Part shown: positions 16,761-20,677 of the stretch, piece by piece
Numbering within the stretch: position 1 is the stretch's first letter
Layout of the letters: the number at the start of each line of letters is the position of its first letter
Source of the DNA: Caenibius sp.
GTDB lineage: Bacteria > Pseudomonadota > Alphaproteobacteria > Sphingomonadales > Sphingomonadaceae
Reading direction: 5' to 3'
Length of the DNA stretch: 34,140 bases
Assembly (NCBI GenBank): GCA_030830695.1
Contig: JAURML010000177.1
Location: 1-34,140, forward strand
Notes under the pieces: generated by a model
The model's input: only the letters and a program-made list of their open reading frames with translations
The model's database searches: none
Told to the model about the DNA's origin: nothing
Position numbers and translations under genes: made by a program

Positions 16761-17102
16761 ATGTTTGATATCGGCGCGTCCGAACTGCTCTTGATCGTCA
16801 TCGTGGCGATCGTGGTCATCGGCCCCAAGGACATGCCCATGGCAATCCGGGCGATTGGCCGCTGGGTTGGCAAGGCGCGGCGCATTTCGGGCCATTTCCG
16901 CTCTGGCATCGAAACCATGATCCGCGAGGCGGAGATGGAGGAGATGGAACGGGAGTGGAAAGAGAGGAACGCGCAGATCATGAACCAGCATCCGGACGCG
17001 GTGACGGAGGAAGAGCAAGCTGCACAGCCGCCCGCCGGTGCGGAATCGCGCGCCGGACCACAGCCGTCCGATCCCGCGGCCCCGCCTCGGGAAGGGGCAT
17101 AA
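16761..17102 (+). CDS. tatB: Sec-independent translocase protein TatB
   Basis: Twin-arginine translocase receptor subunit, partner of TatC. 113 residues: MFDIGASELLLIVIVAIVVIG is the membrane helix with the typical glutamate at residue 8, then GPKDMP and a long charged amphipathic helix (about residues 26-75) rich in Glu and Arg, ending in a Pro/Ala-rich tail. The MFDIG start and the long helix separate it from TatA. It lies 33 bases after tatA and ends in TAA 10 bases before tatC. Confidence 0.95.
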   Translation: MFDIGASELLLIVIVAIVVIGPKDMPMAIRAIGRWVGKARRISGHFRSGIETMIREAEMEEMEREWKERNAQIMNQHPDAVTEEEQAAQPPAGAESRAGPQPSDPAAPPREGA

Positions 17103-17112
17103 GGCGCGCGCA

Positions 17113-17925
17113 ATGGTACTGAAAATCAAGGAAATCGACGAAAGCCAGGCGCCGTTGCTCGATCATCTAATCGAGTTGCGCACGCGGTTGGTGCGCAGCG
17201 TGATTGCACTGGCGGTCGCTTTCTTTGTCTGCCTCTATTTCTCGGAAGATATTTTCAGCTTTCTGGTCCAGCCGCTGACGCAGGCCTTCCCGCAGGGCGA
17301 AGGCCGCCTGATCTACACCAAGCTATACGAAGCCTTCTTCGTGGAGATCAAGGTGGCGCTGTTCGCGGCCTTCTTCGTCAGCTTCCCGATCATCGCCAAC
17401 CAGTTGTGGGCTTTCGTTGCACCGGGCCTTTACACCAAGGAAAAGAAAGCGCTGCTGCCCTTTCTGGTGGCTACACCAGTGCTGTTCGTGGCCGGGGCTT
17501 CGCTGGCATATTTCGTGGTCATGCCCACTGCGTTCAAATGGTTCATCGGGTTCCAGGGGACGCGCGGCGGGTTGAAGCTCGAAGCGCTCCCGGGCACTGG
17601 CGATTACCTGGATCTGGTGATGCAGTTCATTCTCGCCTTTGGGATCAGCTTCCTGCTGCCGGTGCTGCTGCTGTTGCTGAACCGGGCCGGGATCGTTTCG
17701 CGCGCGCAGATGGCCGCTGCGCGCCGTTATGCAATCGTCGCAATCTTCATTGTGGCTGCCATCGCCACGCCGCCGGATGTGATTTCCCAACTGATGCTGG
17801 CAACCCCGCTGATCCTGTTGTTCGAGGGTTCGCTGCTGCTCATGTGGCTTACCGAGCGGCGGCGCGCGAAAGAGCCGGTGACGGATGAAGGCGCGCCGGA
17901 TCAAGCTGGAACGCAGGTGGAATAG
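17113..17925 (+). CDS. tatC: Sec-independent translocase protein TatC
   Basis: Multi-pass inner-membrane receptor that recognises twin-arginine signal peptides. 270 residues from ATG at 17113; the open frame extends upstream over the tatB tail but the family start is here. Seen: LLDHLIELRTRLVRS (the conserved signal-binding N-terminus with HLxELR), six membrane segments, FVEIKVALFAAFFVSFPI, QLWAFVAPGLYTKEKK, YFVVMPTAF and IATPPDVISQLMLATPL. Completes tatABC. It converges on the amidohydrolase-like gene with one base between the two stops. Confidence 0.97.
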   Translation: MVLKIKEIDESQAPLLDHLIELRTRLVRSVIALAVAFFVCLYFSEDIFSFLVQPLTQAFPQGEGRLIYTKLYEAFFVEIKVALFAAFFVSFPIIANQLWAFVAPGLYTKEKKALLPFLVATPVLFVAGASLAYFVVMPTAFKWFIGFQGTRGGLKLEALPGTGDYLDLVMQFILAFGISFLLPVLLLLLNRAGIVSRAQMAAARRYAIVAIFIVAAIATPPDVISQLMLATPLILLFEGSLLLMWLTERRRAKEPVTDEGAPDQAGTQVE

Positions 17926-17926
17926 G

Positions 17927-19324
17927 CTACCAGCCGGGCATTTTCTCGCCGAAGGGGCGCAGCGTGTCCTGGGCCTGTTCATGCCCGGCTTCGTATACCT
18001 TGCGCCCGCTGACCCAGGTTTCCAGGACAGCCATAGCGCGCAGTTCTGCAGGTGTGGCCAGCAGCGGGTCGCGGTCCACCATCACGAAATCTGCCGCTTC
18101 ACCCGCCACGAGCCGACCGAAACGTCCTTCGCCATGACCGGCGCGCGCGCCATTGACGGTGAGCGCGGCAAAGGCCGCCTCGCGGGTCAGGCGCTGCTCC
18201 GGTTGCCAGCCGCCATACGGCTGGCCTTGCGCATCCTCGCGGCTGATTGCGGTCGCAAGGCTTTGCAGGGGCGGTTGAATTGTCGCACCGGGGCCGGAAC
18301 CGAAGACCGGTTGCACTCCGGCACTGACGGCGCTTTGCCAGGGCTGGACATTGGGCCAGAGTTGCGGGGCAAGCGCCGTTTGCGCGCGTGCCATATCTGC
18401 TGCCAGCCTGCCGGGCCGAAATGACAGGGCCGCACTGTGGCCGGCGGCCCGGGCGAGCGTTTCCGGATCGGCCAGCTGCACGCTCTCGATCCGCCAGCGC
18501 CGGTCGCCCTGATAGGTCAGCGACACTTCATCCAGTGCACCCAACACGCTGGCCAGCGCGGCATCGCCATGCGCCACCACCGCGATCTGGAAATTGTCAA
18601 TTGCCGCACGGCTCATCAGATTGCGCAATTGCGTGTCATTGAGCCGGGGCGTTCCGACCGACCCGTTCAGCAAGGCCGCGCCATCTTCCAGCGATCCATC
18701 CAGATCGATGCGCAGGCCGTTGAAACGCAGACGATCGCCATAGAGCCACGGGGTAGGGCCGGGACCACCGATCAGGCTCATCGCGGCGACATCGGGGGCA
18801 TAGGCCATGATCCGCAGATAGAGCCGGCCGGCGTCGCCCGCGCGGCGATAAGTCTGCCAGTCTTCGATCGTCGTCGTCATGTCAGCCACGGCGGTGATAC
18901 CCAACGCGGCCAGCGCCGACTGGGCTTTGGCGAGAGCGATGTCCTGATCTTCAGGGCGCGGTGGCGGCAGTCCGTCAGTCTTGCCGCCGGTCAGTTCGGC
19001 AAGTCCGATCATCATCAGATCAATATGGGAATCGACAAAACCGGGCAGCACCGTGCGACCCCGGCCGTCGATGACGTAAGCAGGCTTCTTCGGGCGCTTG
19101 TCCTTGCCCGTCAGAACCTCGGCGATGCGCCCGTCATCGCCGATCACCAGCCCGCTGAACTGGACCAGCCGCCCATCGGCATCCAGCGTCAGCCCGGCAA
19201 TATTGTCGAGCAGGGTTTCGGCCCGCAGCGGCTGCGGCATCATGATGCCCGCGACCAGCAGTGCGAGCGCAATCAGGGCCGTCCGGGCGCCGGCCAGGGT
19301 GGTGCGGGAGGATTCGCTATGCAT
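17927..19324 (-). CDS. exported amidohydrolase-family protein lacking the metal ligands
   Basis: 465 residues with a signal peptide (hydrophobic core ALIALALLVAGIMM, predicted cut after LRA at residue 35). The fold is that of YtcJ-like metal-dependent amidohydrolases (usually about 550 residues): VLPGFVDSH, LRIDLDGSLEDGAALL, GVQPVFGSG and the C-terminal LVAGEAADFVMVDRDPL are recognisable. Each expected metal or catalytic ligand is changed. The HxH pair reads His100-Ile-Asp102; the lysine before the DGS motif is Arg205; the HAIGD histidine is displaced (VVAHGD); RIEH reads RIES (Ser281); GSD reads GSG (Gly344). The segment between the HxH motif and the barrel strands is also shortened. It may be a non-enzymatic relative or a decaying gene; the reading frame is intact. 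The upstream 99-base gap is shared with the divergent ilvA. Confidence 0.78.
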   Translation of the reverse strand: MHSESSRTTLAGARTALIALALLVAGIMMPQPLRAETLLDNIAGLTLDADGRLVQFSGLVIGDDGRIAEVLTGKDKRPKKPAYVIDGRGRTVLPGFVDSHIDLMMIGLAELTGGKTDGLPPPRPEDQDIALAKAQSALAALGITAVADMTTTIEDWQTYRRAGDAGRLYLRIMAYAPDVAAMSLIGGPGPTPWLYGDRLRFNGLRIDLDGSLEDGAALLNGSVGTPRLNDTQLRNLMSRAAIDNFQIAVVAHGDAALASVLGALDEVSLTYQGDRRWRIESVQLADPETLARAAGHSAALSFRPGRLAADMARAQTALAPQLWPNVQPWQSAVSAGVQPVFGSGPGATIQPPLQSLATAISREDAQGQPYGGWQPEQRLTREAAFAALTVNGARAGHGEGRFGRLVAGEAADFVMVDRDPLLATPAELRAMAVLETWVSGRKVYEAGHEQAQDTLRPFGEKMPGW

Positions 19325-19423
19325 GGCGCGCTGTGTAGCGGCTTTTGCGAGCTTGCAAATGCCTGGATGCAGGGGCGAAACGCTGTTCCCCTTGCCCCCG
19401 CTTTGGTCTAGGGGCCGTCAGTC

Positions 19424-20677
19424 ATGACCCAAACAACCAGCCAGAACGCCGTTGCAGACGATTTGCCCCGGCTGACAATCGACGATATTCGCGCCGCCGC
19501 CGCCCGGTTGAAAGGCGCAATCGTGCGCACGCCCACCCTGCGCAGCCACACATTGTCGCAGATTACCGGGGCCAATATATTCCTGAAATTCGAAAACCAC
19601 CAGTTCACCGCCGCTTACAAGGAACGCGGCGCGCTTAATGCGCTGCTGCTGATGAATGAGGAACAACGCGCGCTCGGAGTAATCGCCGCATCGGCGGGCA
19701 ATCATTCGCAGGGCGTTTCCTATCACGGCACCCGGCTGGGCGTGCCGGTAACGATCGTGATGCCGCGTACCACCCCGCATGTGAAAATCATGCAGACGAA
19801 AAGCGTGGGCGGCAAGGTGATCCTGGAGGGCGAGAATTACGATCAGGCCTATGCTCATGCGCGCAGGCTGGAGACCGAACTGGGGCTGACCTTCATTCAT
19901 CCATTCGACGATCCGGTGGTGGCGGCGGGACAGGGAACGGTCGCGCTGGAAATGCTGGAAGATGTGCCCCAGATCGATACGCTGGCCATTCCGGTAGGGG
20001 GAGGTGGCCTGGCCACGGGCATGGGCACTGCCGCGCGCGCGATCAACCCGTCCATAAAGCTGATCGGGGTGGAAGCGGAACTGTTCCCGTCCATGTACAA
20101 CCGGCTCAAGGGTACCAGCCTGCCATGCGGGGGCGATACGCTGGCCGAAGGCATCGCCGTGTTCGAACCGGGCGAATACACCAGCCGTGCGCTGGCACAG
20201 TTGCTGGACGATTTCCTGCTGGTGGACGAACCGGCGCTGGAAACGGCGCTGGCGCTGTTGTTGCAGATCGAAAAGACGGTGGTTGAAGGGGCAGGGGCTG
20301 CAGGGCTCGCCGCGGTGATGAACAATCGCGAGGTGTTTGCCGGACGCAATGTCGGCATCGTGCTGTGCGGGGGCAATATCGACACCCGCCTGCTGGCCAA
20401 TGTGCTGCTGCGCGATCTGGCACGACAGGGGCGGCTGGCGCGGCTGCGCATCTTCCTGCAGGACCGGCCCGGATCGCTCTATCATGCGATGCACGAATTC
20501 AACGCGCATAACGTCAACATCATCGAGATTTCGCACCAGCGCATCTTCACCACCCTGCCCGCCAAGGGGCTGGTCACGGATATCGAGTGCGAGGCGCGTG
20601 ATCGTGAACAGCTGGACTCGCTGATTCATGCACTGCGGGCCAAGGGCTACACGGTCAGCCAGGTCGAATTGAACTGA
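19424..20677 (+). CDS. ilvA: threonine ammonia-lyase (threonine dehydratase)
   Basis: PLP enzyme that deaminates threonine to 2-oxobutanoate, the entry to isoleucine synthesis. 417 residues: PLP lysine Lys66 in FTAAYKERGALN, SAGNHSQGVSYHG, the PLP-phosphate loop PVGGGGLATG, LCGGNID, and a C-terminal ACT domain (from about residue 343, FLQDRPGSLYHAMHEF). One ACT domain at this length is the shorter ilvA/tdcB form; whether isoleucine inhibits it cannot be read directly. ATG start with a weak GGGG ribosome site. Together with thrB, two steps around threonine lie in this window, but not in one operon. Confidence 0.93.
   Translation: MTQTTSQNAVADDLPRLTIDDIRAAAARLKGAIVRTPTLRSHTLSQITGANIFLKFENHQFTAAYKERGALNALLLMNEEQRALGVIAASAGNHSQGVSYHGTRLGVPVTIVMPRTTPHVKIMQTKSVGGKVILEGENYDQAYAHARRLETELGLTFIHPFDDPVVAAGQGTVALEMLEDVPQIDTLAIPVGGGGLATGMGTAARAINPSIKLIGVEAELFPSMYNRLKGTSLPCGGDTLAEGIAVFEPGEYTSRALAQLLDDFLLVDEPALETALALLLQIEKTVVEGAGAAGLAAVMNNREVFAGRNVGIVLCGGNIDTRLLANVLLRDLARQGRLARLRIFLQDRPGSLYHAMHEFNAHNVNIIEISHQRIFTTLPAKGLVTDIECEARDREQLDSLIHALRAKGYTVSQVELN

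Follow-up and report, generated by a model that had tools for sequence, protein, structure and literature searches.

A short amidohydrolase homologue without its metal ligands, encoded beside ilvA and tatC in sphingomonads, probably persists as a pseudoenzyme in a role independent of catalysis

The window, by which we mean the whole stretch of 34,140 nucleotides analysed here (contig JAURML010000177.1 of the Caenibius sp. assembly GCA_030830695.1), encodes on its minus strand the protein P0001, whose reading frame starts with ATG and ends with TAG (Table 1). The frame converges on a gene that we take to be tatC, following the first-pass annotation, such that the two stop codons are separated by 1 bp; on its other side lies a divergently transcribed gene for what is, to judge by its sequence, presumably an ilvA-like threonine ammonia-lyase. 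P0001 thereby occupies the chromosomal slot of an ilvA–tatC amidohydrolase orthogroup. A short, ligand-less form is found beside ilvA in eight genomes from four genera (G000, G087, G151, G092, G061, G132, G188 and G229): ilvA was matched at all eight of these loci and tatC at seven, the eighth being that of G229, where the contig begins approximately 150 bases from the end of the gene. Overall, ilvA was matched at 85 of 110 loci; many of the loci do not reach far enough to include it. A dehydrogenase-like gene, presumably of the HIBADH type, lies upstream at seven of the eight short-clade loci and was matched at 75 of the 110, but it is absent from the window, where only positions 19325–19423 separate P0001 from the ilvA-like gene, and its best matches elsewhere in the same genome reach only 35% and 28% identity; it is therefore unlikely to be an obligatory partner of P0001.

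Table 1. Features of the P0001 locus, with positions numbered from the first letter of the window
Feature	Position	Strand	Basis or remark
P0001, ligand-less Amidohydro_3 (presumed YtcJ-like) protein, 465 aa	17927..19324	-	ORF and translation, Pfam, eight-genome short clade
Putative N-terminal signal peptide, residues ~1–36, ending LRA before ETLLDN	19217..19324	-	Sequence reading
His100, first His of HxH	19025..19027	-	Alignment; kept in 7/8 short proteins
Asp102 in place of second His of HxH	19019..19021	-	His in 90/90 full-length, 0/8 short
Junction, residues ~112–119, where ~110 aa of full-length orthologues are missing	18968..18991	-	Alignment
Arg205 in place of bridging Lys	18710..18712	-	Lys in 88/90 full-length, 0/8 short
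Val250 in place of HAIGD His	18575..18577	-	His in 88/90 full-length, 0/8 short
Ser281 in place of RIEH His	18482..18484	-	His in 88/90 full-length, 0/8 short
Gly344 in place of GSD Asp	18293..18295	-	Asp in 89/90 full-length, 0/8 short
C-terminal MPGW tail	17930..17941	-	7/8 short proteins, 0/90 full-length
tatC, convergent with P0001 (presumed)	17113..17925	+	Start chosen by us; mechanical ORF starts at 17038
ilvA-like threonine ammonia-lyase (presumed), divergent neighbour	19424..20677	+	Locus matching

P0001 belongs to the Pfam family Amidohydro_3 (PF07969), which it matches with an E-value of 3e-46 and 159.3 bits against a gathering cut-off of 29.7; the label YtcJ-like for this family is our assumption, shared with the first-pass annotation. 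The match to Amidohydro_1 is far poorer (7e-11), and the NCBIfam models for dihydroorotases and hydantoinases fall far under their cut-offs. The best profile stretch begins only at position 148 of 472, as expected from the missing segment described below. In all eight short proteins, a hydrophobic N-terminus is followed by a mature start of the form A(D/E)(T/S)L(L/V/I)DN, and, on this reading, P0001 is probably exported.

The metal-ligand columns were read against 90 full-length orthologues, in a 99-row alignment that also contained the short proteins and from which the distant L009–L011, the loci with broken frames (L043 and L076) and duplicate loci had been left out; 21 further orthologues from a 119-genome sample were read separately. 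All six canonical ligands are carried by 88 of the 90, the exceptions being L007 and L096, which are counted among the full-length rows but were removed to give the ligand-bearing set of 88. In P0001, by contrast, five of the six positions are replaced, affecting HxH, the lysine, both later histidines and the aspartate, and the protein thus lacks the ligand set of the enzyme class. The first-pass annotation had taken every ligand to be replaced; this holds for five, whereas His100 of HxH survives. Its motif alignment was not shifted, as Asp102, Arg205, Ser281 and Gly344 all fall in the corresponding columns of the 90 orthologues, and its displaced HAIGD histidine is found two residues on from Val250, at position 252, where the motif has its isoleucine. 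The remote solved structures 3igh (which aligns to residues 79–109 and 125–423) and 3icj agree with the orthologue alignment in the first five ligand columns; the aspartate column is two residues off in a low-confidence phmmer alignment, in which the Asp of 3igh is paired with Gly346. Sequencing error is excluded as the source of the ligand loss, as this recurs in seven other genomes. Moreover, the interval after HxH spans 20 residues in P0001 compared with 128–131 in most relatives. The protein had previously been described as about 85 residues shorter than its relatives: it is indeed short, but the missing stretch is a single piece of approximately 110 residues directly after HxH.

A search of 397 genomes of the family at an E-value of 1e-108, a threshold that cannot detect more diverged forms, returned seven genomes (that of the window included), all with the short form; the eighth, G151, came from a search of the genus. 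A separate census drew 119 genomes evenly from the family, 111 of which gave a match at 1e-40. Ligand stretches were read in all 111 (with HxH unread in L043 of G052 and L076 of G036, where the frames are broken), and ligands have been lost in eight: G000, G087, G061, G092, G049, G035, G024 and G108. Among the eight genomes with no match at that threshold, a profile search found relatives with canonical ligands in two (G003 and G096) and a ligand-poor protein of short length in a third, G017; the remaining five, G007, G025, G040, G081 and G117, yielded either nothing or only what we judged to be paralogues. The ligand-poor form is thus present in 9 of 119 genomes and 8 of 96 genera.

The phylogeny of homologues at the tatC slot, which had been proposed as a check, places the short forms together: the eight form one clade in a tree of the amidohydrolase core from which the missing segment was omitted (SH 1.0), and the genes flanking the locus give the same clade (SH 0.995 and 1.0; quick IQ-TREE support 99). 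Given this monophyly and the shared slot, the gene was most simply inherited vertically, in place, with the loss of the segment and of the ligands dating to the common ancestor of the four genera or before.

The short clade is under purifying selection. On the shared core columns, a codon model gave omega values of 0.145 for the clade of eight and 0.104 for one genus of four species, against 0.073, 0.118 and 0.147 for three sets of active orthologues, although all of these are rough because synonymous sites are near saturation. On wider columns, the two short sets gave 0.155 and 0.114 and the three active sets 0.096–0.153, and pairwise estimates agree with the codon model (for G132 and G229, dN is 0.14–0.15 and dS 1.0–2.4); dS is near or above 1 even in the two within-genus pairs computed. 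For ilvA, the same five sets in the same order, two short and three active, gave 0.057, 0.048, 0.078, 0.081 and 0.098, so that omega, divided by that of ilvA, comes to approximately 2.5 and 2.2 for the short sets versus 0.9–1.5 for the active ones. Omega is therefore approximately 0.10–0.16 in the short clade and 0.07–0.15 in the active sets: compared with ilvA, the constraint has slackened a little, but the gene does not evolve anywhere near neutrally. The combination that marks a pseudoenzyme, namely, loss of catalytic residues together with purifying selection, is accordingly seen at the level of the clade, the genus of the window being represented by a single genome.

Decay under relaxed selection, in which an enzyme that was no longer needed would leave behind a disappearing gene, is nevertheless to be weighed. 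The short proteins have evolved faster than active orthologues, with between-genus identities of 52–61% compared with 62–85% (mean 72%) in nine active pairs at similar ilvA distance, and the residues that replace the ligands vary freely. Elsewhere in the family, ligands have also been lost, at least one orthologue has apparently disappeared altogether (from G117, which shares a genus with G035) and a full-length orthologue, L076 of G036, is split by an in-frame stop, making it a candidate pseudogene or the product of a sequencing error. Set against this are eight intact frames with signal peptides, spread over four genera and separated by dS values near or above 1, which extend to the whole clade the intact frame and signal peptide noted for P0001; 114 columns that are invariant among the eight; omega well below neutrality; and a loss concentrated on the catalytic face (see below). 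We consider decay unlikely. The first-pass annotation had left the choice between a pseudoenzyme and a gene under relaxed selection, and it is the former that is favoured by the intact orthologues, the low omega and the one-sided loss; some relaxation is evident, but it does not serve as the main account.

The pattern of what has been kept is informative. In the 88 ligand-bearing orthologues, 142 columns are at least 90% conserved, and we call a column kept when its residue is present in at least seven of the eight short proteins. Setting the ligands aside, 73 columns are kept and 63 are not, and the two classes are segregated along the chain. Conservation is complete or nearly so in residues 36–98 (12/12), 120–165 (15/17), 166–204 (12/12), 231–249 (7/7), 266–280 (5/5) and 376–446 (13/15), intermediate in 251–265 (2/7) and 345–375 (5/12), and virtually abolished in 99–119 (0/6, including ligand columns 100 and 102), 206–230 (0/13), 282–300 (0/7), 301–330 (1/19) and 331–343 (0/5). 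Within the 15 residues preceding a ligand, 23 of 28 conserved columns are kept, compared with 4 of 33 in the 15 that follow (Fisher 3e-8; this width and the segment borders are our choice). Additionally, 22 of a set of 146 columns with high conservation are kept by no short protein at all, and these 22 include all five lost ligand columns (hypergeometric 5e-5, for columns that are not independent). In the amidohydrolase barrel, the ligands are located at the C-terminal ends of the strands; as the loss follows the ligands, the short clade appears to have shed the catalytic face and retained the rest of the barrel, a spatial statement that derives from position in the sequence. AlphaFold2 models built from eight-row alignments were too poor for superposition (pLDDT 40.3 and pTM 0.29 for P0001; pLDDT 51.0 for the active relative L002).

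Comparison with 12 YtcJ-like paralogues, 10 of them from two genomes of one genus (G003 and G096), divides the kept columns further: 33 of the 73 occur in 25% of the paralogues or fewer and 20 in 75% or more, although two of the 12, L144 and L157, align only partly and lower these fractions. The 33 are apparently not demanded by the general fold, and they offer the strongest pointer to a function of the orthogroup that does not depend on catalysis. The 10 well-aligned paralogues share 32–39 of the 73 kept columns and 15–21 of the 63 lost ones, as would be expected under fold constraint, and packing specific to the orthogroup is a fair alternative account of the kept columns. Two of the paralogues, L155 (G096) and L156 (G003), have W, H, Q, Y, H and D at the ligand positions, possibly a variant metal site or a misalignment.

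These data also bear on whether the emptied cleft of the barrel might bind a metabolite without turning it over. There is a precedent within the superfamily, in that CRMP-4 is described as having a cavity that resembles an active site but lacks the metal residues (PMC4051505). A shared ligand would, however, be expected to fix some of the columns lining the cleft, and it is the cleft-side stretches (residues 206–230, 282–300, 301–330 and 331–343, listed above) that are the least conserved part of the protein; a small-molecule receptor thus seems improbable.

The replacing residues give little sign of a rebuilt active site. The first-pass annotation had looked to conservation of Asp102, Arg205, Ser281 and Gly344 across species as support for a pseudoenzyme family, but all four vary among the eight short proteins: position 102 is occupied by D, R, S or A, 205 by R, H, Y, F or A, 281 by S, G, A, N or R, and 344 by G, S, A, I or K. 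As far as can be judged from the alignment, this variability speaks against a new active site, not against a family of pseudoenzymes. A conserved replacement active site was sought in the eight proteins and none was found; their 114 invariant columns include neither a histidine nor a cysteine. Lys79, Leu103, Glu125, Ala139 and Tyr169 are the only residues that all eight share and that fewer than 30% of the full-length orthologues have, all other invariant residues, aspartates and glutamates included, occurring in at least 30% of them. It is therefore very unlikely that P0001 is still an enzyme using another metal site or another chemistry: His100 is retained in all but one of the eight and several aspartates are invariant, as such a proposal would need, but at the sequence level there is no conspicuous new grouping of potential ligands.

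The short clade has also acquired a C-terminal MPGW tail, absent only from G092 among its members. It is encoded by ATG CCC GGC/T TGG, and this near-identity of codons is weak evidence either way, as the clade uses both CCC and GGC frequently. A terminator or another DNA-level cause of the tail was considered and set aside, as no consistent hairpin was found.

By analogy with the pseudo-dihydroorotase that associates with aspartate transcarbamoylase (ATCase), P0001 might be the regulatory partner, within a hetero-oligomer, of an active amidohydrolase of the same cell. Candidates for such a partner exist, as further matches to the Amidohydro_3 profile were found in all 10 genomes searched, that of the window included. 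There is no sign of a close paralogue, though: in its own genome (a 2.5-Mb draft in 200 contigs), P0001 has no second copy and is the sole match at an E-value of 1e-3, and all four genomes searched from one genus have a single match at 1e-30. We consider this arrangement highly improbable.

Ligand loss is not confined to the short clade. In G024 and G108, G035, G049, G017 and L007, the orthologue occupying this slot next to ilvA lacks between three and six of the ligand residues; the proteins comprise 552 residues in G024 and G108 and 548 in G035, whereas those of G049 and G017 are short, the latter with a 437-residue frame. G024 and G108 are two species of one genus whose proteins are 84% identical (dN 0.094, dS 1.1). 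Their loci (L107/L096 in G024 and L108 in G108) encode full-length forms with an intact HxH, in which the lysine, both later histidines and the aspartate are replaced by T, Q, D/N and I. The six ligand-poor rows (G017, G035, G049, L096 of G024, G108 and L007) keep 52–69 of the 73 columns kept by the short clade versus 7–42 of the 63 others. The segment after HxH is missing from the short clade, from G049 and from G017 (L143/L158); as G035, the sister of G049 (SH 1.0), retains it, G049 and the short clade must have lost it separately. Two more distant full-length relatives, L009 and L010 from Acidobacteria and Vicinamibacterales MAGs (33% and 32% identity), read YxQ for HxH and have replacements for the lysine, the HAIGD histidine and the aspartate, while the RIEH-type histidine apparently remains, one residue along.

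Parsimony on a quick tree of the neighbouring genes gives five changes for the loss of ligands. A single group made up of all 14 ligand-poor rows is rejected (p-AU 7e-7), as are the short clade with G024, G108, G035 and G049 (P = 0.002) and the short clade with G017 (P = 0.004); not rejected are the short clade with L007 (P = 0.44), G024, G108, G035 and G049 together (P = 0.89) and those four with G017 (P = 0.37), all of these groups having been named after the tree was seen. The tree that holds G024, G108, G035 and G049 together is better than the free quick tree, which is thus not the best one. We conclude that ligands were lost at least twice independently, and we do not claim five losses. 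In the amidohydrolase tree itself, the fast-evolving ligand-poor rows G049, L096 and L007 adjoin the short clade; we do not take this as kinship but as long-branch attraction, since the neighbour-gene trees disagree.

Overall, P0001 is probably a pseudoenzyme kept for a role that does not depend on catalysis, and that role would most plausibly be as a protein-binding or scaffold component of the periplasm, acting through the retained part of the barrel. By vertical descent, P0001 is an orthologue of an active YtcJ-like, metal-dependent amidohydrolase whose gene adjoins ilvA, and in many cases tatC, throughout the family. In the common ancestor of the four genera, or before, the segment after HxH and five of the six metal ligands were lost, and the loops of the catalytic face then drifted. 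With its export signal and with selection persisting, P0001, presumably inactive given the loss of its ligands, would act in the periplasm through its N- and C-terminal parts, residues 120–204 and 231–249 and the stretches leading to the former ligands. That selection has acted across several genera despite an erased catalytic face suggests a job for which catalysis is not needed, and the retained part, together with the new tail, points to contact with another protein.

This role may be old rather than new, since a column had to be conserved in the active orthologues in order to count as retained. An ancestral periplasmic job carried by parts of the protein away from the metal site, from which several lineages independently dropped the activity and, at least twice, the segment as well, is an extension that we put forward tentatively and hold to be somewhat less than an even prospect; if true, even the active orthologues would be two-function proteins. 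The orthogroup offers a bacterial, apparently exported pseudoenzyme together with its natural controls, namely, 88 ligand-bearing orthologues and several ligand-poor lineages. The contrast between them points to residues conserved independently of catalysis, for example, Trp156, Arg160, Arg161, Pro190, Asn235, Arg239 and Trp277, by way of which a hidden second function becomes directly testable. It also follows that profile-based annotation will name such proteins amidohydrolases despite the absent metal site.

To our knowledge, the pseudoenzymes of the amidohydrolase superfamily comprise the animal CRMPs and the pseudo-dihydroorotases, and among the matches listed in searches of open-access full texts on amidohydrolase pseudoenzymes, on YtcJ-like proteins of sphingomonads and on the ilvA/tatC neighbourhood, no paper dealt with P0001. 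With the YtcJ-like amidohydrolases of known structure (3igh and 3icj), P0001 shares the Pfam family but not the ligand set or the segment after HxH. P0001 lies outside the Amidohydro_1/dihydroorotase–hydantoinase branch, as judged by the profiles, and is therefore neither a CRMP nor a pseudo-dihydroorotase. The CRMPs are ligand-less relatives of dihydropyrimidinase (DHPase) in animals that keep two of six metal-binding residues, have the bridging lysine replaced and combine an intact barrel and sandwich with no DHPase activity seen (PMC4051505). They represent the fold without the catalysis, as P0001 is predicted to do from its sequence; however, the CRMPs are cytosolic, belong to the Amidohydro_1 branch and coexist with the active enzyme, whereas P0001 is bacterial, carries an export signal, has lost a segment and is the single orthologue itself in changed form. 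The pseudo-dihydroorotase of the Pseudomonas aeruginosa ATCase is reported to be an inactive amidohydrolase homologue needed by another enzyme (PMC7053772); it resembles P0001 in being bacterial and inactive (predicted, in the case of P0001), but it comes from the dihydroorotase branch and, unlike P0001, has a known partner. The closest parallel in evolutionary pattern, albeit in an unrelated enzyme, is provided by the fungal pseudonucleases of the Dis3L2/Ssd1 family, for which repeated loss of the active site with conservation of other regions is described, the inactive forms being RNA-binding proteins, and for which the authors infer an older, non-catalytic function (PMC8097288), much as the P0001 orthogroup has repeatedly lost its ligands and kept one set of its other conserved columns.
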